A stretch of DNA of 47,021 nt from a virus: positions 1 through 47,021 of IMG/VR virus record IMGVR_UViG_3300023117_000029; one strand, given 5' to 3'. This document shows, one piece after another, positions 19,230-47,021 of this stretch. Below the pieces are notes generated by a model. That model was not told where the DNA came from, did not search any database, and saw only the letters and a list, made by a program, of their open reading frames with translations. The position numbers and the translations under genes are program-made. Numbering within the stretch: the stretch's first letter is position 1; every line of letters begins with the position of its first letter.

Positions 19230-22200
19230 ATGAGTATTAGAATCGCACATATTGGTGACGTTCACTATCGTAGTTTGTCACGCCATGATGAATACCGAAA
19301 AGTATTCGAAGAGTTTTGCCAGAAGGTAAAAGAACTTAATGTTGATTTAATATATGTCGCAGGTGACATTTATCATACTAAGACCCAGGGAATCTCTCCT
19401 GAAGTTATTGATGAAATGAGCTGGTGGTTTACTTCCCTAGCAGAAGTCGCCCCAACACATGTGATCCTAGGCAATCATGATGGCAATATGGTTAATTCTC
19501 AAAGACAAGATGCAATTACTCCTGTTGTAAATGCTCTTAACAATCCTAGGGTTCATCTCTATAAGAAGTCTGGAACTTATCCAACTGGAATAAAAGGTTT
19601 TAACTGGAGCGTTTTTTCTTGCTTTGATGAAAAGGGTTGGAAAAATGTAAAGCCTGTGGAAGATGAAATTAACATCGCTTGCTACCACGGCTGCGTTGTA
19701 GGCTCGACCACAGATCAGAATTGGGAACTTGACGGTGAGATAAAACTTAGCTTCTTTGATGACTACGAGTTTGTTATGCTCGGGGATATTCACAAATTCC
19801 AGTTCTTAAATGAGAAAAAGACAGCTGCTTACCCCGGATCCACAATCCAGCAAAATTATGGCGAAGATCCCAATAAAGGCTTTTTGATTTGGGATATCAG
19901 AGACAAGGATGACTTTGACGTCACTTTTCACAGGCTTTCTAATCCGCACCCGTTTGTCACAATCGATTGGCAAGGTAGCGTTCCATCAACTATTAAAGAA
20001 GCTAAGAAGCACAAGTCAGGATGTCGATTTAGAATTAGAACAACTGAAACAATCCCGCAGATTGAAATCAAGCAATTTCACAATGAATTAAAGGCGCAGA
20101 GGCAGCCTAAAGAATTAGTATGGAAGTTTGATCAAGATCCTGATGAGACAAACGTAATTGATGCAAACAACAACCTTGTAAAAGAAGATCTCAGAGATCC
20201 AAAAGTTCAAGTTAAAATTTTGAAAGACTATGTTTTCGATGGCAAGTTTAACGATGATGAGTGGGAAGACATCGAAAAGCTAGTAAATCGATATATTACG
20301 CTTGCAACGCAGAACGAAGATGTAGCCAGGCATACAAAGTGGTCAATTAAATCTCTTGAGTTTGATAACACATTTTCGTATGGAAAAAATAACAAGATTG
20401 ACTTTACTAAGCTAAATGGAATTACAGGTATTCTAGGTAGAAACAGAGCAGGTAAGTCTTCTATTGTTGGGACTATAGTTTATAATCTATTCAATGGCAC
20501 AGATCGCGGCTCAATCAAGAACCTGCACGTGATTAACTCCAGAAAAGGTCATTGCAACACCAAGATGATCGCTAAAATCGGCGGTCACGATCATTTGATT
20601 GAGAGGCAGTCTGTTAGATATGAAGATAAAAAAGGAAAACAGTCTGCTGTAACAACCTTGAATTTTCAAAAGGTCGATGAAGCAGGCAATATAATTCAAG
20701 ATCTAAATGGTGAGCAAAGAACTCAGACTGAGAAAGTAATAAGAAAAATGTTCGGAACTTCCGACGACTTTTTATTGACATCTCTTGCCACCCAAGGCAA
20801 TATGAATGCGTTCATCAGCCAAGGATCTTCTCATAGAAAATATGTTCTATCTAAATTCTTGGATCTTGATATCTTTGATAAGATGTCTAGCCTCGTAAAA
20901 AATGATTCTACTGAGATCAAAGGCAAACTTTCTACTTATCCAGAGAGAGACTGGAATGCAGCCATCTTCATGCTGAGAAAAAAGAAAAAAGAGCATGACG
21001 AAGAAATGGTCTTACTAGAAAATGAATTAGTAGGTCTAAGAGAAGAAGCACAAAAAGTACAGCTTGAGCTATCTAATTTCTCTGAAACTGATCTTGTGTC
21101 TGAATCAGAAATTAATGAAAAACAAGAAGAAGTAGATAAACTATCTGAGAAGACAGACGAAGTCCAGATTCGACTTGAGTCATGTAGCAATAAGATTGCT
21201 GACATTCAAAAGAAAATTGATAAGATCGAAGAGGTAAAAACGAGATTCCCAATCGAAGAGATCAGAGAACGACAAGAAATCTATAATGATCTCGAAAAGC
21301 AACTTACTTCCTTAGAGCATCAACATGATTCTGCAAAGCAAGTCCTAAAAACTCAAAAGAAATCAGTTAAGCTTCTTGATGACGTTCCTTGCGGAGATTC
21401 TTTTCCAACATGTAAGTTTATCAAAGAATCACACAAAAATAAGAAGCTCATTGTTGAACAGCAAGATATAGTTACTAATTTTTCAAAAGACTTGCTCGCA
21501 ATGAAGAGATCTTTTAAAAAGCTTGATGAAGAAGGCTTGAGTGAAAAGATTCAAAAGTATGAGCAGTTGATGTCAAGGCTCTCAGCTTTTAACGTAAATC
21601 TAACAAGAAAGCAGAGTGAGAAAGAAGTTCTAGAAAGAGATTTTAGAGACTTATCTGAAAATCTTGAAAAATCGATCAAGGCTTTAGAGAACATGCGGAT
21701 GAGGTCTTCGTCTGCAGATGTTTCAGAGGTTGCAAAAAACCTCAACGAGAATCTAAAGGAAATGTTATCTGAGATTCAACAGAAAGATGCCAGAAGAATT
21801 TCTCTTGCAGAGTTAAAAGGTAACATAGACAGCCAGATTAAAAAGCTTCAAAGCGAAAGAGATGAGTATTCTAAACTCAAGCGGGTTTGGAAAATTTATG
21901 ACTTCTTAATGAAGGCTTGGTCTAAAAAAGGATTGCCCACACAAATAATTAAATCACAGCTTCCTGCAATTAACTCTGAGATTGAAAAGATATTGAATGG
22001 AGTTGTTGATTTTACTGTTAATCTTGAAACAGATCCCGATTCAAATTCTGCAGAAATCTATCTTGATTACGGAGATAGTAGAAGAATAATCGAATTGGCA
22101 TCAGGCATGGAGAAGATGATTTCTTCTCTTGCTATTCGAGTTGCATTGCTAAATGTTTCTTCTCTTCCCAAGACTGATATGCTGATTATCGACGAAGGTT

Positions 22201-22373
22201 TTGGCTCTCTGGATGAAGCCCAGGTTGCAGCCTGTAATAGCTTGTTGGTCTCTCTTAAAAAGTGGTTTAGAAATATCTTGGTCATTACTCATGTGGACTC
22301 GGTAAAGGATATTGTTGACAATACTTTGGAGATATCAAGCAAAGGAAAGGACTCGCACGTAGAATATGTCTAA
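19230..22373 (+). CDS. 47-46: Fused gp47-gp46 recombination endonuclease/ATPase (SbcD-SbcC, Mre11-Rad50 type)
   Basis: One 1047-residue chain contains both halves of the T4 gp46/gp47 complex. Residues 1 to about 340 are a calcineurin-like phosphoesterase of the Mre11/SbcD type: D10-x-H12, GDIYH (45-49), GNHD (81-84), C151YHG and GDIH (D186, H188). Residues about 370-1047 are an SbcC/Rad50 ATPase: Walker A GRNRAGKSS (403-411), long coiled coil with a zinc-hook-like C721 and C728, signature ASGME (958-959) and Walker B LIIDEGFGSLDE (D988, E989). It resects DNA ends for recombination-dependent replication. The hook spacing C-x6-C is wider than the usual C-x2-C. No stop interrupts the junction. 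A ribosome site AGGAA precedes the ATG. Confidence 0.93.
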   Translation: MSIRIAHIGDVHYRSLSRHDEYRKVFEEFCQKVKELNVDLIYVAGDIYHTKTQGISPEVIDEMSWWFTSLAEVAPTHVILGNHDGNMVNSQRQDAITPVVNALNNPRVHLYKKSGTYPTGIKGFNWSVFSCFDEKGWKNVKPVEDEINIACYHGCVVGSTTDQNWELDGEIKLSFFDDYEFVMLGDIHKFQFLNEKKTAAYPGSTIQQNYGEDPNKGFLIWDIRDKDDFDVTFHRLSNPHPFVTIDWQGSVPSTIKEAKKHKSGCRFRIRTTETIPQIEIKQFHNELKAQRQPKELVWKFDQDPDETNVIDANNNLVKEDLRDPKVQVKILKDYVFDGKFNDDEWEDIEKLVNRYITLATQNEDVARHTKWSIKSLEFDNTFSYGKNNKIDFTKLNGITGILGRNRAGKSSIVGTIVYNLFNGTDRGSIKNLHVINSRKGHCNTKMIAKIGGHDHLIERQSVRYEDKKGKQSAVTTLNFQKVDEAGNIIQDLNGEQRTQTEKVIRKMFGTSDDFLLTSLATQGNMNAFISQGSSHRKYVLSKFLDLDIFDKMSSLVKNDSTEIKGKLSTYPERDWNAAIFMLRKKKKEHDEEMVLLENELVGLREEAQKVQLELSNFSETDLVSESEINEKQEEVDKLSEKTDEVQIRLESCSNKIADIQKKIDKIEEVKTRFPIEEIRERQEIYNDLEKQLTSLEHQHDSAKQVLKTQKKSVKLLDDVPCGDSFPTCKFIKESHKNKKLIVEQQDIVTNFSKDLLAMKRSFKKLDEEGLSEKIQKYEQLMSRLSAFNVNLTRKQSEKEVLERDFRDLSENLEKSIKALENMRMRSSSADVSEVAKNLNENLKEMLSEIQQKDARRISLAELKGNIDSQIKKLQSERDEYSKLKRVWKIYDFLMKAWSKKGLPTQIIKSQLPAINSEIEKILNGVVDFTVNLETDPDSNSAEIYLDYGDSRRIIELASGMEKMISSLAIRVALLNVSSLPKTDMLIIDEGFGSLDEAQVAACNSLLVSLKKWFRNILVITHVDSVKDIVDNTLEISSKGKDSHVEYV

Positions 22374-37297: not shown

Positions 37298-40200
37298 ATG
37301 GCAGAAAAGACTTTTAGATCTCCGGGCGTATTTGAGAACGAGGTAGATCTCACTCAAAGAACCCAAGGTCCTCTTGGCACCCCCGCAGGTATTGTTGGAA
37401 CCGCAGAGAGGGGTCCTGCATTTGTCCCTGTTACCGTTGGTAGCATGGCAGATTTTGAAACAAAGTTTGGTAATCTTGACTCTAAAAAATTTGGACCATA
37501 CGCTGTAAAGGCATTCTTAGACCAGGCAAGCTCCGCAACTTATGTAAGAGTTCTCGGTGGAGGTGCTAACGCATCTGACGCAGATATCTCTACGACAGAA
37601 TCTCAAGGCTCTGTAAGAAATGCTGGTTTTGTACTTGCACCTGACACATCTGATCCCCGCCAAGTCAAGGGTGCAGTTCAGATGATCGCAGCTCGACATT
37701 ATGTTTCTGCATCTGAGACATATTCTCCTAGAATATTCACCGACAATGATTCTTATCCTGGCGGTGGGGCAGATGGATTTGTAAATCTTGTTCGAGGCGT
37801 AATTTTTACAACAAACACGTCAGCTGTTGGGGTCTTGAATGGCGCGCAATTTGGTGACGATATTGCCGCTGCAGACAATACCGGTGTGCTGGAAACATCC
37901 GGCCTGATGAAAGATAAGTTTAAGATTTACATTTCTTCATCAAACGATTCTTTTGGAACTACTGATGGCGAAGCAGGTGTTAAAATCTTCACAGCTTCTC
38001 TTGATCCAAGAGATAAGAACTACATTAGAAACATTCTTAACACCAATCCTGATAAGTTCGAAGAAGAGCAGCACTTGCTTTATGCTGCTTATGACGTAGA
38101 AGCATCTATTGCTGCAGTAACAAACAGCGGTATTGGTGTAGCAATGCTTTCAGGGTCTGGTAACTCGTCTGTTAACAATCCTGCCGGAGATGCATTCTTA
38201 GCTTCTTATGGTAGGCTTGATACGAGATTCACAACTCCTAGCACAACCGAGATAATCTCTCAGCCTTACGGTAAAAAAGAGTTTGATCTGTTTCACTTCG
38301 AATCTCTAGATGATGGAGCATTTTCAAACGACAAGTACAAAGTTTCTATTGCAAACATTAAGGGATCAACAGACCCACTTAATCCATACGGAACTTTTAC
38401 GGTTTTCGTACGTGCATATGATGATTCTGATTCTTCTCCTGAGATCATTGAGCAATTTCCAAATTGTAATCTGAATCCAGACTCCGAATCTTTTATCGGA
38501 GCAATGATCGGTGATAGAAGGCTTAAATATAACTTTGATGCAGCTGATGAGTCTGAAAGAAAATTGGTTTCTTTGGGATCTTACTCAAATAAGTCAAACC
38601 TTATTAGAGTCGTTTTAAGCGCTGAGCTTCAAAGCGGAGAAGTTCCTAAGACTGCTTTGCCTTTCGGATTTAAGGGTTTGCCTGTTCTGAAGACAAATGA
38701 TGCGCTAACTGATCTCCCTGGAGCGACACCAAGGCTTCATGCTAAAGGTCTTAAGGGTGCCGCAAGTGGATTAGCAGCAAATATATCAGGATCGATTATC
38801 CCACCTGTTCCTTACGTGTTTAAGGTTACTAAGGGTGCAGTTTCTACTTCTCCCACATTCGCAGGTGAGCCTGGAGCACTTGAGGACGAAGATCCTAGCA
38901 TTTACTGGGGCGTTAAAACAACGCTTCTTGCTCCTGACTCCGAGCTTCATCCAAATGCCACGGGAAGAACAGCAAATGCAGTTTTGAATTCTAACCTAAA
39001 TGGAGGTGTAAATCAAGGCCTTAAAGATATGCTGAAATTCTCTGGTATCTCCTTGATGGACAACTTAATGACAGGTTCAGGTCAAAACGATCTTAATAAC
39101 AATAAGTTTACACTCGCACGAGTTGCTCTTTCCACTCAGGCAGGACTTTCTGCAACAGGCTTCTACAGCGATACAGAAATTACAGGTGCAGTTGGTCCTT
39201 ACATGAGAGAAGCAGCATATCTTAGAGATGCAAAACTTGATAATGTCTCTTATGTTGCAACAGATGGCACAAGAGGAAATAGAATTACGTTTGGTACGCT
39301 CGCAGCGCAAACTTCTTCTGTTACATTCAACAAGTTTGCTGACTACATGAAGTTCACCACGGTATTCCACGGTGGATTTGATGGCTTGAACATTCTTGAT
39401 AGAAATGCTGCAAGAATGAACGACAAGTCAGTTTCAATCGATGCAGGGGGTGGAGCATCTACAACGTTTACTTCACCAGGATTGGCTGTTAACGCTGCAG
39501 GATCTGGTCTTGATAACAATGGTATTAACTCCTACAGAGCTGCTGCATTAACAATCCTTGATCCCTACACAACTAATATTAATATTCTTGCAGTTCCAGG
39601 AATTAGAGAACCATTTGTTACAGACTTTGTTCTTGATAAGAACACCGAGTATGGAATGTCTCTCTACTTGATGGATATACCAAGTTACGACAAGGATCGA
39701 AACAGGCTGTACGATGACTCTTCTGTTCGTCCTGAAGTTCAAGCTACTGTCGCCAAGTTTGAAGCGCGCGGTGTAGATAACAGTTCGGCAGCTTCTTACT
39801 TCCCAGATGTTTCGATCACTGATGACACCAACAATAAAATTGTTGATGTTCCTTCCTCTGTTGCTGCGATTGGTGCACTTGCTGTCACAGATAAGACGCG
39901 CTATCCGTGGTTTGCTCCAGCTGGATTTGATCGTGGATCTCTTTCCAACGTTCAGGCAGTTAAGGCGAAACTAAACTCAGCAGATAAGGATTCCTTGTAT
40001 GATGCAAGAATTAATCCAATTGCAACCTTCCCAAGAATCGGACCGGGCGGAACACCTGGATACGTGATCTTTGGGCAGAAAACACTGCAACAAGCCAGGT
40101 CGGCACTTGATCGAGTTAACGTTAGAAGAATGTTGCTTGAAGTCAAGCGCCAGGTCGTTGCTGTTGCAAACAACTTTGTCTTCGAGCAGAACACACCTGC

Positions 40201-40426
40201 ATTAAGAAAGAAATTCGTTGCTCAAGTAACACCTTTGCTAGCAACAGTACAAGCTCAAAGCGGCATTGAGAAGTTTAAAGTGATCATGGACAACACTAAC
40301 AATTCTCAGGCTGATATTGAGTCAAACAGACTGAATGGTAGAATCGTTCTTGTACCTACTAGAGCTATCGAATTTGTATCGCTTGACTTTATCATCACAA
40401 ATGCTGGTGTGAGTTTCGAAGAATAG
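37298..40426 (+). CDS. 18: Tail sheath protein, first copy (gp18-like)
   Basis: A 1042-residue contractile sheath protein. The N-terminus (SPGVFENEVDLTQRTQGPLG and GIVGTAERGPAFVPVTVG) and the C-terminal sheath domain (VIFGQKTLQQARSALDRVNV, RRMLLEVKRQVV, FKVIMDNTNNSQADIESN, GRIVLVPTRAIEFVSLDFII) are those of T4 gp18. It is about 1.6 times the T4 length (659), with the extra sequence in the middle, probably as exposed surface domains. An AGGAG site precedes the ATG. It is followed after 31 nt by a second sheath paralogue, so the sheath may contain two subunits or one may replace the other. Confidence 0.95.
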   Translation: MAEKTFRSPGVFENEVDLTQRTQGPLGTPAGIVGTAERGPAFVPVTVGSMADFETKFGNLDSKKFGPYAVKAFLDQASSATYVRVLGGGANASDADISTTESQGSVRNAGFVLAPDTSDPRQVKGAVQMIAARHYVSASETYSPRIFTDNDSYPGGGADGFVNLVRGVIFTTNTSAVGVLNGAQFGDDIAAADNTGVLETSGLMKDKFKIYISSSNDSFGTTDGEAGVKIFTASLDPRDKNYIRNILNTNPDKFEEEQHLLYAAYDVEASIAAVTNSGIGVAMLSGSGNSSVNNPAGDAFLASYGRLDTRFTTPSTTEIISQPYGKKEFDLFHFESLDDGAFSNDKYKVSIANIKGSTDPLNPYGTFTVFVRAYDDSDSSPEIIEQFPNCNLNPDSESFIGAMIGDRRLKYNFDAADESERKLVSLGSYSNKSNLIRVVLSAELQSGEVPKTALPFGFKGLPVLKTNDALTDLPGATPRLHAKGLKGAASGLAANISGSIIPPVPYVFKVTKGAVSTSPTFAGEPGALEDEDPSIYWGVKTTLLAPDSELHPNATGRTANAVLNSNLNGGVNQGLKDMLKFSGISLMDNLMTGSGQNDLNNNKFTLARVALSTQAGLSATGFYSDTEITGAVGPYMREAAYLRDAKLDNVSYVATDGTRGNRITFGTLAAQTSSVTFNKFADYMKFTTVFHGGFDGLNILDRNAARMNDKSVSIDAGGGASTTFTSPGLAVNAAGSGLDNNGINSYRAAALTILDPYTTNINILAVPGIREPFVTDFVLDKNTEYGMSLYLMDIPSYDKDRNRLYDDSSVRPEVQATVAKFEARGVDNSSAASYFPDVSITDDTNNKIVDVPSSVAAIGALAVTDKTRYPWFAPAGFDRGSLSNVQAVKAKLNSADKDSLYDARINPIATFPRIGPGGTPGYVIFGQKTLQQARSALDRVNVRRMLLEVKRQVVAVANNFVFEQNTPALRKKFVAQVTPLLATVQAQSGIEKFKVIMDNTNNSQADIESNRLNGRIVLVPTRAIEFVSLDFIITNAGVSFEE

Positions 40427-40434: not shown

Positions 40435-40457
40435 GAAATGATATTGGAGTTTTGAGA

Positions 40458-43400
40458 ATGGCTGAAAACATCCCAGGCGTCCGCGCAAGAGAAATTGACA
40501 TCTCCCAACCTACACCTCAGGGAATCGATGGTATTCCAGCAGGTGTGATCGGGACTGCTCAACAAGGACCCGCATTCGTTCCAGTTACTATATCTAACTT
40601 CCAGGATTTTGAAGCAATCTTTGGGGTTATTGATAAAGTTAAAGATAAGTCCTTGTTCGGACCTGTTGCAGCCCAACAGTGGCTGAGAAATGCTAATGCA
40701 TTAACATACGTTAGAGTTCTTGGTGCAGGTGATGGTAAACAGAGAAACAGTGATGATACCGTCACAAATGGTGGTTTTGTTGCAGGGAATCAATTGCCTC
40801 AAGCTGATGGCTTTTTAGGTGATAACCCATTTGCAAACGCTGGTGGTTTAGGTGCAGGTCGTGTATACTTCTTGGGTGCGTACATGTCCCAGTCATCTAC
40901 ATCGACAATATTCTCAGATGCAGGACTTCAAACTCTCGGTGAAGAGAGAGGTCATCCAATTCTTAGAGGCGTGTTGTTTGCCGCTTCAGGAACAGCCCTG
41001 ACGCTTTCTTCCTCTAACGGCGTATCCAATACTCTTGCTTCCTCTGATGATTCCTCAGCAAACGTAGGCTTCATCACGGGCACAGTTAACTTTGAAAATG
41101 GCGCACCTCACTTTACAATGTTCGTAAAAGGTCTTAAAGATGCTGATCTTAACGTAATTACAGCATCCCTCGATCCTGAGCAAGAAAAGGAATATTTCGC
41201 AACTGTTTTCAATACAGACCCAGCCAAAATTGAAGAGAGAGGACACTACCTCTACACACACTATGACGTTTACTCTCAATATGCTGTCGTTACCGGATCT
41301 GGCCTTACACAAGTAGGCCCAGATATCGTAAACAAGAAAGCGCAAAGAGATGAGCAATATATTGGTTCTTCTGACTGCGTCTTCTTGACAACAGGTGCTC
41401 TAAATAGAAACACAGTGTCAGGAGATGCTCCAAACTATGAAGGATTTACAACAAGGTTTGATCATTCCAGATCGCCATTTGTAATCTCACAGAAATTTGG
41501 TGGTTCTGCTAAGAATCTATTCAAGGTTCACGCAAAAGGTGATGGAGTTATCAAGTCCAAAGCATCTGATCCTACCGGTGCGAATACCAAGTTTAAGATC
41601 TCAATTGAGAATGTGAGAAAGTCTTCTGATCCTAATAATGATTACGGAACATTCGATCTTGTAGTCAGAGATCTATTCGATCAAGACGAGCCTAGTAAGC
41701 AGATTCCTCTTGAGGCTTTCCGTGGGCTGTCTCTTGATCCAGGTGCTGATAGATACATCGGAAGAATCATTGGCGATAGAAATGTCTTCTACGACTTTGA
41801 ACAGCAAACAGGATTTCAAAAAGTTGTTGTTGAAGGAAAGTACGCAAGCAGATCTAATTTGATTAGAGTTGAGATTGACTCTGACGTTGAAAATGGCGAT
41901 ATTGATGCAACAGCCCTCCCAGTAGGATTTAGAGGTCTCGATCACTTGATCACTTCTGGTTCTGCACCACTTACAGCAGTTCCAGACAATGATCTTCAAA
42001 CACACACATCTGAGCTACTGAAGGCAACGGTTGAGCCTCCAGTACCATTTAGAGAGACACTATTGTTGGCGTCTGGAACTGCAACTGCTAAGTCAAAGGC
42101 TTCCCTTTACTGGGGCGTTCAATTCCAGAGAAAGTCTTCGACTTCTAAGCCAAATGAGGATTCTCAAGCTGAGCCTACAATTTTAAGTCACACCAAGTTC
42201 TTCCCGAACTTTTACGGCTTAAACAGCGCTAATATGAACGTGATCACAGGTTCTAATGCAGGTCAGCCAGATTCTGCAGGGATTGTGTTTGACGCAGATA
42301 GATTCAATAACAACATCTTTACTCTTGAGAACGTCCAGATTCTCACAGGTTCTGGCGATAAAGCAGATGCATCAAGTACAGGCCTCAAGGAGTGGAGATA
42401 TGTTAGACAAGGAAGCATCGTTCCAAATGAAGCAGATAAGACACGAGCATGGTCTGTTGATGATACTGGTGATCAAAAGGTTTCTAACGTTTCTAAGTTC
42501 TCTTTCCCAATTCAGGGTGGATTCGATGGCGTAAACATCTTCGATTCTAGCTCTGCAAATCTCACAGAAGATGCAGCTAAGGGAGAGATGGATGACTCAA
42601 ATCGAGGACAAAGAAATGGTCCAACTGTAGCTGCTTACTTCAAGGCACTTGATGTGATGGCTGACAAGTCTGATGTAGACATTCAGCTTCTTGCAATCCC
42701 AGGTATTAGACAAGAGGTGATTACTGATCAAGCAATCTTGAAGGTTGAAGACAGATTTGATGCTCTCTACCTTATGGATATCGAAGAGAGAGATAACGTC
42801 AATACTGTCGTTACGTCCTCAATCCAGAAAGATAAGATTAGCGTTGCTAATACAGTCACAGCCTTTAACGGTAGAAATCTTGACTCATCCTTTGCAGCAG
42901 CTTACTTCCCAGATGTTACAATGGAAGTTGACCAGAAATCATTGGATACACAAACCAAGGTCCTTAGAACCCAGACAACTTCTGTTGTTGTTCCGCCATC
43001 TGTGGCTGTTCTTGGGGCATTCTCTGCAAATGATAGGGTCGCGTTCCCGTGGTTCGCACCTGCAGGATTTAGCAGAGGCGCACTTGCCGGCGTATCCGAA
43101 GTCAAGACCAAGCTGAATGAAGAAAACGTTCAAGATCTGAACAATGCTAAGATCAACCCAATCCAGACATTCCCGAATTCTGGTCCGGTGGTCTTCGGTC
43201 AAAGAACTCTGCAACAAGCTGCATCCGCACTTGATAGAGTGAACGTAAGAAGACTTCTCATCGACATTAGGCGCTCGGTGCGTCAAGCAGCAAATCAGAT
43301 CTTGTTCGAGCCAAATAGAGAAGCAACACTCGCAAGGCTTAGTGCTCGAGTTCGACCAATCTTGCAGAATGTACAGCAGAACGCAGGTATTGATAGATTC

Positions 43401-43547
43401 AAGGTTATTATCGATGCCTCTACGACATCTCAAGCTGATGTTGAAAACAACATCGTAAGAGGTAAAATCTTTATCCAGCCAACCCGAACCGCCGAATTCA
43501 TCTCTCTCGACTTCGTCGTCACAAATGCGGGTGTAGAAGGAATTTAA
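40458..43547 (+). CDS. 18: Tail sheath protein, second copy (gp18-like)
   Basis: A 1029-residue paralogue of the previous sheath protein. Start at ATG 40458 with GGAG 8 nt upstream; an in-frame TTG at 40452 is too close to that site. Shared blocks are PAGVIGTAQQGPAFVPVT, WGVQF, KINPIQTFP, VVFGQRTLQQAASALDRVNV and GKIFIQPTRTAEFISLDFVV at the end. The central part differs greatly from copy one, so the outer surface has diverged while the contractile core is kept. Tandem sheath genes suggest a heteromeric sheath or alternative use. It is again much longer than T4 gp18. Confidence 0.93.
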   Translation: MAENIPGVRAREIDISQPTPQGIDGIPAGVIGTAQQGPAFVPVTISNFQDFEAIFGVIDKVKDKSLFGPVAAQQWLRNANALTYVRVLGAGDGKQRNSDDTVTNGGFVAGNQLPQADGFLGDNPFANAGGLGAGRVYFLGAYMSQSSTSTIFSDAGLQTLGEERGHPILRGVLFAASGTALTLSSSNGVSNTLASSDDSSANVGFITGTVNFENGAPHFTMFVKGLKDADLNVITASLDPEQEKEYFATVFNTDPAKIEERGHYLYTHYDVYSQYAVVTGSGLTQVGPDIVNKKAQRDEQYIGSSDCVFLTTGALNRNTVSGDAPNYEGFTTRFDHSRSPFVISQKFGGSAKNLFKVHAKGDGVIKSKASDPTGANTKFKISIENVRKSSDPNNDYGTFDLVVRDLFDQDEPSKQIPLEAFRGLSLDPGADRYIGRIIGDRNVFYDFEQQTGFQKVVVEGKYASRSNLIRVEIDSDVENGDIDATALPVGFRGLDHLITSGSAPLTAVPDNDLQTHTSELLKATVEPPVPFRETLLLASGTATAKSKASLYWGVQFQRKSSTSKPNEDSQAEPTILSHTKFFPNFYGLNSANMNVITGSNAGQPDSAGIVFDADRFNNNIFTLENVQILTGSGDKADASSTGLKEWRYVRQGSIVPNEADKTRAWSVDDTGDQKVSNVSKFSFPIQGGFDGVNIFDSSSANLTEDAAKGEMDDSNRGQRNGPTVAAYFKALDVMADKSDVDIQLLAIPGIRQEVITDQAILKVEDRFDALYLMDIEERDNVNTVVTSSIQKDKISVANTVTAFNGRNLDSSFAAAYFPDVTMEVDQKSLDTQTKVLRTQTTSVVVPPSVAVLGAFSANDRVAFPWFAPAGFSRGALAGVSEVKTKLNEENVQDLNNAKINPIQTFPNSGPVVFGQRTLQQAASALDRVNVRRLLIDIRRSVRQAANQILFEPNREATLARLSARVRPILQNVQQNAGIDRFKVIIDASTTSQADVENNIVRGKIFIQPTRTAEFISLDFVVTNAGVEGI

Positions 43548-43611: not shown

Positions 43612-44103
43612 ATGGCAGAAACACTATCAGTCGCAGAGATGCTTCCAAATAAGTTTGAACCGAAACGCAAGTTTCGATGGGTTTTTGCCATAGAAGGCAT
43701 TGATGCATTCTTAATGAAGACCGCAGCCCGCCCACAGATCCAAACAAACGACCAAGCAATCCAGTTCATTAACCACACACGCTACGTCACAGGAAGAACT
43801 ACGTTCCAGACAATGACTGTTTCTCTCTATGATCCTATCGCCCCTTCCGGCGCACAGCAGGTTATGGAGTGGGTGAGAACTCACTTTGAGTCTGTATCAG
43901 GTCGAGCAGGCTACGCTGATTTTTACAAGCGTGATTGCCAGATCAAGATGTTGGATCCAGTAGGTACAGTTGTTGAGCTCTGGGACATCAAGGGCGCATT
44001 TATTACAAATGCTAACTTTGGTACAGACTTGGATTACAACTCTGAAGCTCCTGCAGATATTCAGATGACCCTGAGATTTGACAACTGCGTCCTTCAATAC
44101 TAG
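43612..44103 (+). CDS. 19: Tail tube protein (gp19-like)
   Basis: At 163 residues it has exactly the length I recall for T4 gp19. Features: EMLPNKFEPKRKFRWVFAIE, INHTRYVTGRTTFQTMTVSL, YDPIAPSGAQQVMEWVRTHF, FYKRDCQIKMLDPVGTVVEL and the final MTLRFDNCVLQY, all typical of the T4/T6SS Hcp-like tube family. Hexameric rings stack on the tape measure to form the inner tube inside the sheath. It is preceded by a TTAGGAG ribosome site and followed by a 123-nt gap with two hairpins. Confidence 0.94.
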   Translation: MAETLSVAEMLPNKFEPKRKFRWVFAIEGIDAFLMKTAARPQIQTNDQAIQFINHTRYVTGRTTFQTMTVSLYDPIAPSGAQQVMEWVRTHFESVSGRAGYADFYKRDCQIKMLDPVGTVVELWDIKGAFITNANFGTDLDYNSEAPADIQMTLRFDNCVLQY

Positions 44104-44226: not shown

Positions 44227-45069
44227 ATGTCTCGTAAAAATGATATCTTTACTGATGGGGGTATGCATGAGCAGATGATGCAGCCCTCCATTGAGAGAAT
44301 GCAGCAGGATTTAGGATTTGACATTCCTGTTGAACAGGTACCTCTGCCTTCTCAAGGCCTGGCGTATCCTGTAGGGCATCCACTTCACGGAAAAGTTGCC
44401 GTTGAAATCAGGGCAATGACGGCAAGAGAGGAAGATATCCTCACGTCAAGAGCTCTTATTAAGCAAGGAACAGTTATCTCACATTTGCTCTCCTCTTGCT
44501 TGATGGACAAGACAATAGATACGAGATCCATGCTTAGCGGGGATCGCACTGCAGTCATGATCGCTCTTAGAATTACGGGATACGGTGCTGATTATAATAT
44601 TGAGCTTGATTGCCCAGCATGCGGAACGCATCAACAATGCGAGCATAATTTGGCTGAGCTCCCAATTAGAACCCTCGATCTCCAGCCTGTTGAGCCAAAC
44701 ACAAACTTGTTCGCATTTAAGTTGCCCATGTCAGGAAAGACAGTTCACTTTAGATTTGCAACAGGTGAAGATGAGGAAGAGCAAGCACTTCTCGCAGAGA
44801 GAAAGAGAAAGCAAGGCTTCGCTGCAGACAGCTTGGTAACAGATAGGCTCCAGAGAGTAATTGTTTCTATCGATGGCGAAACTTCAGGTGGTAAGATCAA
44901 TCAGTTTATTAGAAACATGCCTGCTAGAGACTCTCTCACACTGAGAAGGTACATTGACGCTCATGAGCCTTCGGTGCTAATGTCAGCACCCTTCACATGC
45001 ATTAATTGCGGCTACGATGAGGAGGTGGGCCTTCCGATAGGCCCATCGTTTTTTTGGCCTGAAACCTAG
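44227..45069 (+). CDS. gp26-like baseplate hub / tail assembly chaperone protein
   Basis: The 280-residue protein resembles the T4 gp26-type baseplate family as found in distant T4-like phages: VPLPSQGLAYPVGHPLHGKV, EIRAMTAREEDILTSRALIK, and RITGYGADYNIELDCPACG. Two cysteine pairs, C129-x2-C132 and C258-x2-C261, form a probable zinc site. It ends in frame at a TAG just after TTTTTTTGG. The gene lies between tail tube and tape measure, the slot of the tail assembly chaperone in most tailed phages, and the ORF after it has no start, so a frameshifted longer form (364 residues) is likely. An AAAGGA ribosome site precedes the ATG. The gp26 assignment is moderate. Confidence 0.7.
   Translation: MSRKNDIFTDGGMHEQMMQPSIERMQQDLGFDIPVEQVPLPSQGLAYPVGHPLHGKVAVEIRAMTAREEDILTSRALIKQGTVISHLLSSCLMDKTIDTRSMLSGDRTAVMIALRITGYGADYNIELDCPACGTHQQCEHNLAELPIRTLDLQPVEPNTNLFAFKLPMSGKTVHFRFATGEDEEEQALLAERKRKQGFAADSLVTDRLQRVIVSIDGETSGGKINQFIRNMPARDSLTLRRYIDAHEPSVLMSAPFTCINCGYDEEVGLPIGPSFFWPET
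45020..45055 (+). promoter_or_regulatory. Candidate +1 programmed frameshift signal
   Basis: Inside the end of the gp26-like gene are, in order, AGGAGG (45020-45025, a full anti-SD match), a hairpin TGGGCC / GGCCCA (45026-45031 and 45040-45045, 8-nt loop), TCG, and seven T residues (45049-45055) before GGCC. In the zero frame this reads TCG TTT TTT TGG; a P-site Phe-tRNA can slip +1 onto TTT and read GGC next. When the hairpin folds, AGGAGG comes within about 3 nt of the slippery run, as in the RF2 +1 signal. The same sequence also resembles an intrinsic terminator. Confidence 0.6.
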
Positions 45070-45322
45070 TGATAGAGACATCTACCTAGAACAAACATTT
45101 CTTCTGATGTATTACGGTGGCTTTACTTACACCGAAGCATATAAGTTGCCGATTCAATATCGCAACTGGTTTATTGATAGAATAAACAAAGAATTTAAGA
45201 AGGCAGCTGAAGCAGGTGAATCTGCCCAGACCAGAGCTGCACACCAAAACGATCCAACATCTAGAGCGATGATGGGGAACTCTAGAACAGAAAGTCCTTC
45301 TAGGATTCGAAGATTTACGTAA
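45056..45322 (+). CDS. Frameshift extension of the gp26-like protein (chaperone GT-type tail)
   Basis: This +1-frame segment is open from 45041 to 45322. It reads GLKPSDRDIYLEQTFLLMYY, then GGFTYTEAYKLPIQYRNWFI and DRINKEFKKA, a sequence I associate with short conserved tail proteins of T4-like phages. It has no ATG, GTG or TTG before 45107, and the conserved-looking residues start before that ATG, which has no ribosome site. It is therefore best read as the end of a 364-residue fusion with the gp26-like protein. The alternative is independent initiation at 45107, giving 71 residues. The C-terminus is basic (RTESPSRIRRFT). The tape measure gene follows after 51 nt. Confidence 0.65.
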   Translation, partial: GLKPSDRDIYLEQTFLLMYYGGFTYTEAYKLPIQYRNWFIDRINKEFKKAAEAGESAQTRAAHQNDPTSRAMMGNSRTESPSRIRRFT

Positions 45323-45373: not shown

Positions 45374-47021
45374 ATGGCAGATCTTAATAATCTTATTGAA
45401 AAGTTAGAAGAACTATCAGGGCAAGGTGCTTCTGATGCCATTGCTGTCACAACAGAAAGATTAAGAAAACTAAGAGATCTCGTTTCTCAGATCGAAGCAG
45501 AAGGAACTGGCGGTCTATCAACTGCCCAACAACAAAGGGTCAACACTGCTAAGGCTATAATTAAGCAAGCAGGTGACGCAGCTAAGAGTTACGGAAAATC
45601 AGCTGCTTCCGCTGCGATGTCTACTAATGACATGACAAGCGCTCTCGAAACTGCAGCAAAAGCTGCTATAGCCGGAGGCTTAGCAGGCGGCTTAGTCAAG
45701 ATAGGCAGCGAATTAGATAAAGTGGCTTTTAAAGGGTCTAATTTTAATGAAGTTTTTAAGTCTCTTGGCATAGGAGCAGCTTCAGGTTTTGCAGATGCCT
45801 TTCAGGCAATGTATGACAAGGGTGTCCTTCCTACGCTGCAGGCTACTCAAGAGGAATTTGGCACGCTCTTTGGTGAAACCAAAAGAATGGTTGATGGAGC
45901 ATCACGATCTCTTATAGGTGATCTCGCAAGATCTGCTGATGAAACTGCTGCAATGGCTGATAAGCTCGGAAGAAGCTTAGATGTCAATACCAACTCCCTT
46001 AGATTTTTTAAGGGCGGCCTAGAGGGAACAAAGGAAGTAAGAAAAGATTTTGCTGAGTCTCTGAAAAGTCTTTTGCCTGTTCTTTTTATTATGGGCGAAG
46101 AAGTAAATAAGCTTTCACTCAGGCAGCTTGCAACATTTAAAAATGCTTTAAATCTCAGTTCTGAAGATCTTGCAGCGCTCGGTAAAAGAGCCACCGGCTT
46201 TGGGACATCTGTCCCAAGAGAGCTGATGAAGGTTGAGAGAACTGCAAAGGCTTTGGCTGATGCAACAGGATTAGATCGAAAACAGCTTGGTGCTAACCTT
46301 GCGGCAATGCGAGCTGACTTCCAAACATTTGGAAACGTAAGCACTGCTGAGCTTGGTAAGATTGCAGCAAGGGCTATGTCTCTGGGTGTTGAACTAGATA
46401 AGTTAACAGGACTTGCTACAAAGTTTGATGATTTTGATACTGCAGCAGATTCTGTCGCTACGCTATCACAAGCGCTAGGTGTCAATATCGACGCGTTCCA
46501 GCTATTTGAAACAGAAGATCCAACTGAGCGCTTAACAATGATCAGGGATGCTTTCTTAGAAGCAGGTCAAGATATCACTCAAATGAATAGGCGAACAAGA
46601 ACTTTGTTAGCCAATGTCGGTATTGATCCCTCTGCCTTGCTTCCGGCTCTCGCCCCCGGTGGCGCAGCACAAGAAAGAGGTGCTGGAATCCGTGAGGCCG
46701 CAGCCGGATTAGACATAGCTGCTCTTGAAAGATCTTTTGAACAAATTAGTCTAAAGATTCCTGAGGCATCTGAAAAATACCTTCAAGAAGTTGCGGTCCT
46801 CACAACAAGGCAGCTCGAAGGAATAGGGCAGCAGTTTACGAACGCAGTGCAAAATGCTGTGCTGAGCAGGCAGAATAGAGATCAGATCGCGCAGTCGTTC
46901 TCAAGATTGAGCAAGATTCCAGATTTAGCAAACGATGCTTTCTCCGGAATAGAGACACAAACAGGTGAAGTAAGCACAGAAGCGATCAAGGCTATTCGAA
47001 ATACTCAAGCACGCCTTAATA
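45374..47021 (+). CDS. Tape measure protein, N-terminal part (3' end outside window)
   Basis: The frame is open from ATG 45374 to the end of the window, 549 codons so far. The sequence is Ala/Leu/Lys/Glu-rich and mainly helical, starting MADLNNLIEKLEELSGQGAS, with a hydrophobic segment (AAKAAIAGGLAGGLVKIG) around residue 95-115 and later conserved tape-measure-like blocks (ATGLDRKQLGANLAAMRADF, LSQALGVNIDAFQLFE, PTERLTMIRDAFLEAG). It sets tail length and leaves the tube at infection. In T4 the equivalent is gp29; the position after tube and chaperone-like genes matches tailed phages generally. Size cannot be judged because the gene is cut by the window edge. Confidence 0.78.
   Translation, partial: MADLNNLIEKLEELSGQGASDAIAVTTERLRKLRDLVSQIEAEGTGGLSTAQQQRVNTAKAIIKQAGDAAKSYGKSAASAAMSTNDMTSALETAAKAAIAGGLAGGLVKIGSELDKVAFKGSNFNEVFKSLGIGAASGFADAFQAMYDKGVLPTLQATQEEFGTLFGETKRMVDGASRSLIGDLARSADETAAMADKLGRSLDVNTNSLRFFKGGLEGTKEVRKDFAESLKSLLPVLFIMGEEVNKLSLRQLATFKNALNLSSEDLAALGKRATGFGTSVPRELMKVERTAKALADATGLDRKQLGANLAAMRADFQTFGNVSTAELGKIAARAMSLGVELDKLTGLATKFDDFDTAADSVATLSQALGVNIDAFQLFETEDPTERLTMIRDAFLEAGQDITQMNRRTRTLLANVGIDPSALLPALAPGGAAQERGAGIREAAAGLDIAALERSFEQISLKIPEASEKYLQEVAVLTTRQLEGIGQQFTNAVQNAVLSRQNRDQIAQSFSRLSKIPDLANDAFSGIETQTGEVSTEAIKAIRNTQARLN

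Follow-up and report, generated by a model that had tools for sequence, protein, structure and literature searches.

A candidate +1 frameshift that would join the two parts of a tail assembly chaperone in T4-type bacterial viruses

A large, mostly uncultured group of T4-type bacterial viruses almost certainly makes the long form of its tail assembly chaperone by a +1 ribosomal slip, as judged by comparison of homologous loci. In the window (the whole 47,021-nt stretch of viral DNA analyzed here), a single locus very probably encodes two forms of the T4-type chaperone, a short protein, G, and a long one, GT, which a +1 slip would produce. The first-pass annotation had proposed such a slip, giving a fusion of 276 plus 88 residues ahead of the tape measure gene, and this proposal finds support in close to 150 homologous junctions, in a +1 frame that is under selection ahead of the usual start codon, and in a chaperone context. 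In the literature searched, which covered few subscription journals, no T4-type chaperone was described as having a +1 site, and the +1 element, its breadth and the difference in phase within one gene family appear to be new.

The locus lies in a T4-type tail module

The end of the window is a T4-type tail module with genes for two sheath proteins, the tube, the gp26-like protein and a presumed tape measure protein. T4-type genes for capsid, portal and terminase lie farther upstream. The chaperone locus sits between tail tube and tape measure genes (Table 1), and the order tube, G, T and presumed tape measure recurs in Flavobacterium phage immuto and Listeria phage LIS04, whose annotations give the gene following G/T as tape measure. 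In the window, the presumed tape measure gene gave no family match above cut-off in the profile search, and the tube ORF also matches PF06841 (E = 1.1e-5), below the cut-off of that family. The gp26-like gene was found with 100% protein identity on a separate IMG/VR contig (L001). The two adjacent sheath proteins (37298–40426 and 40452–43547) are ~1030–1040 residues long, with a sheath C-terminal domain match in each.

Table 1. Features of the chaperone locus, in window coordinates
Feature	Position	Strand	Basis or remark
Tail tube protein (gp19-like)	43612–44103	+	Directly upstream of chaperone; PHROG 4542, E = 9.8e-31
G (TAC-N), gp26-like, 280 residues, zero frame	44227–45069	+	PF12322 (T4_baseplate), E = 5e-15; PHROG 150, E = 6e-16
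Internal Shine-Dalgarno-like AGGAGGT	45020–45026	+	Ends 25 nt before P-site codon
Predicted hairpin between SD and slip site	45024–45047	+	45024–45032 with 45039–45047; 6-nt loop
Candidate shift site UUU_UUU_UGG	45049–45057	+	(U/C)UU UGG at all 147 dereplicated scored sites
T (TAC-C), putative +1-frame extension, 88 residues and stop	45056–45322	+	dN/dS; match to cyanophage T
Presumed tape measure protein, cut by window end	45374–47020	+	Position; annotation of the gene after G/T in immuto and LIS04

G and the predicted GT correspond to T4-type tail assembly chaperones

T4 gp26 and gp51 both belong to PF12322 and match each other (E = 1e-21), with gp51 carrying an additional C-terminal stretch. 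The window G matches PF12322 as gp26 does, and also PHROG 150. Because the direct profile match between window GT and gp51 is weak (E = 9e-4, probability 23%), we used the cyanophage proteins as a bridge. With hhalign, the fused GT of the window clade aligns end to end with the cyanophage fused G+T (E = 9e-9), and cyanophage G+T, translated across a -1 shift, does so with T4 gp51 (E = 1.6e-17); cyanophage T alone matches both the gp51 tail (3.5e-12) and window-clade T (3.7e-6). These alignments support the product as a counterpart of the gpG/gpGT tail assembly chaperone. We modeled G and T separately with AlphaFold2. The G model (mean pLDDT 88) has as its best PDB match the HK97 tail assembly chaperone (2ob9_B), a weak one (E = 1.3, probability 0.33). 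T is predicted to be helical (mean pLDDT 78); it had no meaningful PDB fold match, and the window copy had no PHROG match.

G/GT frameshifting is widely conserved in long-tailed phages, with T4 the stated exception (PMC5009743). The first-pass annotation was right that T4 is not known for a frameshift here and did not give the reason, which is that T4 has G and GT as two distinct genes, gp26 and gp51, according to Vladimirov, Gautam and Davidson (2022). As that work is quoted in the PRFect (PMC10885494) and phage Adele (PMC12846349) papers, T4-like phages can carry short and fused long chaperone genes; in the phage Adele paper, it is apparently also credited with noting poly-T -1 signals in T4-like chaperone genes. 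The assignment of gp26 and gp51 as chaperones was dropped as a new claim, the quoted parts of Vladimirov 2022 being prior art. T4 and the window share a gene family, since GT aligns with gp51 through the cyanophage fusion; T4 uses two genes for the short and long forms, whereas the window would use one locus with a +1 shift.

A conserved YUU U sequence marks the candidate shift site

An IMG/VR scan with the gp26-like protein returned at least 600 related stretches, the best 80 of which make up the window clade; Microcystis phage Mel-JY01 and the metagenomic phage LR756508 served to find a second, more distant set. Identical junctions were removed before counting, and both sets were scored only on sites having TGG. 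In the window, the zero-frame end of the gp26-like ORF reads TCG TTT TTT TGG CCT GAA ACC TAG, which puts UUU in the E site (45049–45051) and the P site (45052–45054) and UGG in the A site (45055–45057). Among the best 80 of at least 600 stretches, 70 dereplicated sites have TTT (58), CTT (12) or TTC (0) in the P site, followed by TGG in 70/70 and CCT in 69/70; the 77 sites of the second set have TTT in 76, CTT in one and TTC in none, with TGG in 77/77 and CCT in 76/77. The P-site codon is thus UUC in 0 of 134 Phe codons in both sets together, against a background elsewhere in these genes of 40% and 23% TTC and 60% and 77% TTT (window clade and second set, respectively).

This conservation is far beyond chance; the nominal probabilities (~1e-13 and ~1e-9) treat related phages as independent and are therefore overstated. 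Constraint on the third U of the P-site codon, where a change would be silent in the zero frame, points to re-pairing, and all 147 scored sites offer the CUU U or UUU U on which RF2-type +1 re-pairing of the P-site codon would depend. Four second-set loci fell outside the TGG scoring, two of them with TTT TAC (L276 and L278), indicating that a U after the P-site codon is the strict requirement and that UGG itself is not. CCT was not counted as evidence of slipping because it is partly forced by a Leu codon of the overlapping frame.

The elements that had been noted (AGGAGG, a hairpin, TCG and seven Ts) are all present, with AGGAGGT at 45020–45026 and T7 at 45049–45055, directly behind TCG. U7, proposed earlier as the shift signal, is present in the window but is not the conserved unit. 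T7 is not special in the window (18 matches versus 42 expected by chance), and the phase is unchanged at sites with a broken U-run, namely UUU CUU UGG, with no T run beyond three, and UUC UUU UGG, of which there are three among the best 80 of at least 600 stretches; UUC also occurs at 11 sites of the second set. Because the run can break while the phase is kept, we read the signal as YUU U and not U7.

In the mechanism we favor, most ribosomes would stay in the zero frame and produce the 280-residue G. A fraction, with peptidyl-tRNA-Phe on UUU 45052–45054 and UGG in the A site, would slip by +1 onto UUU 45053–45055 and read GGC next, yielding a GT of 364 residues; we infer both the slip and the share of ribosomes that take it. 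The internal SD, pairing with 16S rRNA, and the RNA hairpin, both upstream, would stimulate the slip. By analogy with lambda gpG/gpGT, G would coat the tape measure and T would recruit tube subunits.

The +1 frame is under selection upstream of its usual start codon

As the first-pass annotation had it, the +1 ORF is open from 45041 and contains no ATG, GTG or TTG until the ATG at 45107. We found no SD before this ATG, nor before the ATG in the loci of relatives that were inspected. A +1 step at the shift site yields exactly 276 + 88 = 364 residues. At every readable junction of the window clade (the best 80 of at least 600), the +1 frame continues without interruption past the zero-frame stop, and in nearly all of them the -1 frame closes soon after that stop, at +20 in L001, the twin of the window. 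The -1-frame extension expected behind a classical slippery heptamer X XXY YYZ was not found at the window locus and was found in the cyanophage-type set.

Over 55 alignable loci, the NG86 dN/dS was 0.24 for the stretch of ten T codons that runs from the zero-frame stop to the usual ATG and 0.22 after the ATG, by which measure the T frame is under purifying selection upstream of its usual start. No ATG precedes +40 in 63/68 loci, and the usual ATG is absent in L024 and others. Together, these loci have the form of a start-less second ORF that a conserved frameshift near the end of G would join to it. Homologues in which T has a start of its own, which the earlier reading had held would speak against a fusion, do exist, but their sites are changed and they nest inside the +1 clade in the tree. 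In L196 (site TTC TTG TAT CCT) and L200 (TTC CTT TGG CCA), T begins with an ATG of its own shortly after the stop of G (G ORF end about 2196), and L200 retains CTT TGG despite this ATG. A derived loss of the frameshift together with its signal is suggested by these two loci, and is suggestive only.

The upstream SD and hairpin are probably accessory stimulators

The hairpin had been described as having 6 bp; it is present, with a predicted best fold of 9 bp (-17.3 kcal/mol for the 33-nt segment) that overlaps the last SD bases. GAGGT begins at -30 in 62/70 relatives among the best 80 of at least 600 and is absent there in 8/70, and the Glu codon at the SD is GAG in 64/64 versus a background of 54%; the SD position is not conserved in the second set. 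Consensus folding of the junction alignment gave two invariant pairs only, with no covariation and no compensatory pair, and since covariation therefore cannot support the hairpin, we used a synonymous-shuffle test instead. The stretch from SD to slip site in the window clade (~-8.4 versus -5.0 kcal/mol) is more stable than all 200 synonymous shuffles, with the same outcome at each of three dereplication levels and little or no effect in two control stretches. The second set also exceeded all 200 shuffles, with a weaker effect. Among individual window-clade sequences, 42% reached p ≤ 0.05; conserved Pro and Gly codons account for part of the stem, the stems shift register among relatives and the element has no Rfam match.

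We take the SD and hairpin to be real but accessory stimulators that would depend on lineage and not be universal, and it is plausible that the hairpin loops the SD into place. A different view of stimulation is that the upstream hairpin, and not the SD, drives the slip by folding in the mRNA exit channel and pushing the ribosome forward. This is consistent with a stability above all 200 shuffles in both sets, including the one without a conserved SD position. The partial forcing by Pro and Gly codons, the varying register and the many single sequences that fall short of significance count against it, and we hold a purely hairpin-driven slip to be less likely than not.

Counting against the +1 explanation as a whole are the A-site UGG, a sense codon without a demonstrated pause, the SD at 25 nt and not 3 nt upstream, the relatives without GAGGT at -30, the variable stem positions with no compensatory pair and the weak direct match of window GT to gp51.

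Alternative accounts of the second ORF

T could be a separate gene, as public annotations label it, with translation beginning at the ATG at 45107, perhaps through reinitiation once G has terminated. An ATG near +55 in most homologues, and the ATG just behind the G stop in L196 and L200, fit this reading, but no SD precedes the ATG, L024 and others lack it, the ten codons before it are under equal purifying selection and, in the predicted structure, starting there would cut off a conserved first helix. We regard it as highly improbable. The same low weight falls to a -2 shift in place of +1: the T frame is equally the -2 frame, phage Mu uses a -2 shift and so sets a precedent, and U7, or even CUU (moving onto UUC), would permit some -2 re-pairing. 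At UUC UUU UGG, however, a -2 move would leave tRNA-Phe mismatched to UCU at the middle position, and the sole base pattern kept throughout is the one that +1 needs.

The seven Ts of the window would also invite RNA polymerase slippage, or a homopolymer error in sequencing or assembly. An identical phase in almost 150 dereplicated contigs, with runs of only three to four Ts and no change of phase in the UUU CUU UGG and UUC UUU UGG relatives, leaves this very unlikely, the least probable of these alternatives. The reading that we retain is a +1 slip of the ribosome joining T to G.

The probable chaperone frameshift differs in phase within the T4-type family

Homologous G and T, with the same Phe-Phe position, occur in Kyanoviridae and further T4-type phages that have U UUU UUC (S-RIM8, VH7D, Aswh_1); there T lies in the -1 frame at a classical heptamer, whereas the window has it in the +1 frame. 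All 78 of 78 readable cyanophage-type loci place T in the -1 frame, and T TTT TTC occurred at 53/53 dereplicated sites, with TTC making up 31% of Phe codons in these genes. Many of these loci also have an ATG overlapping or adjoining the stop, and for them reinitiation is possible; S-RIM8 and Aswh_1 lack one. The -1 phase is also seen in Rhizobium phages and in relatives of Eneladusvirus.

Five phages of Firmicutes and Streptomyces (LIS04, SP-15, GXN1, LuckySocke, BRock) have a T ORF in +1 phase without YUU UGG; in the corresponding loci (L084, L086, L087, L088, L089), UUU is followed by C in four of five. The uncultured phage LR756511 (L085) forms a long branch among the +1 phages, yet has T in the -1 frame with TTTTTTC upstream, and may represent a reversal of phase.

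In a tree of 60 G proteins, the gp26/gp51 genes form one clade beside the -1 phages, and the +1 label changes at least twice on well-supported branches; the tree has several long branches, and the order of events is not firm. A broader proposal, to which we give somewhat less than even weight, is that SD, hairpin and YUU UGG CCU make up a distinct element in which the hairpin sets the SD distance or pushes the ribosome, and that T4-type phages have moved between -1 and +1 frameshifting in the chaperone gene while using one and the same pair of codons. The +1 clade, its -1 relatives at the same Phe-Phe site and the two-gene Tevenvirinae form a natural series in which to study how the direction of a recoding signal can change when the product stays the same. 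(U/C)UU UGG would be a sense-codon +1 site conserved over many phages and is amenable to E. coli reporters.

For several T4-type chaperones in public records, the annotation truncates or omits the T half. In Synechococcus phage S-RIM8 (L286, 2211–2399), T follows TTTTTTC in the -1 frame, lacks a start codon close to the junction and is labeled a truncated "baseplate hub assembly catalyst"; in Aeromonas phage Aswh_1 (L290, 2205–2369), a -1-frame T behind TTTTTTC, also with no nearby start, is unannotated.

Comparison with known frameshift systems

The locus resembles lambda gpG/gpGT, in which a short G likewise precedes the tape measure and a T domain is added by frameshifting near the end of G (Levin 1993; Xu 2004; PMC5009743); the likeness is one of arrangement, and lambda shifts by -1, whereas the window would shift by +1 at a different site. 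With bacterial RF2 (prfB), the window shares a CUU or UUU codon with U behind it, an SD within the gene ahead of that codon and a presumed +1 slip by the tRNA in the P site. RF2 genes shift at CUU U, with UUU U in a minority of them (PMC5009743). The window differs from RF2 in having UGG in place of a UGA stop in the A site, in an SD 25 nt and not ~3 nt from the shift codon, with a hairpin between, and in implying no autoregulation, whereas RF2 is autoregulatory.

Two +1 shifts come from other phage groups. The chaperone of haloarchaeal myovirus HSTV-2 is called very likely to use +1 (PMC5009743), and SPP1 gp17.1* arises by +1 in a tail gene, at CCC UAA in the tube gene; the SPP1 chaperone is thought to use -1 (PMC6316719).

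Other features of the window

No tRNA gene was found in the 47,021-nt window. An ORF of 1047 residues (19230–22373) has an N-terminal calcineurin-like phosphoesterase domain followed by weaker AAA/SbcC-like matches, and perhaps encodes a fused SbcD-SbcC (T4 gp47-gp46) nuclease.
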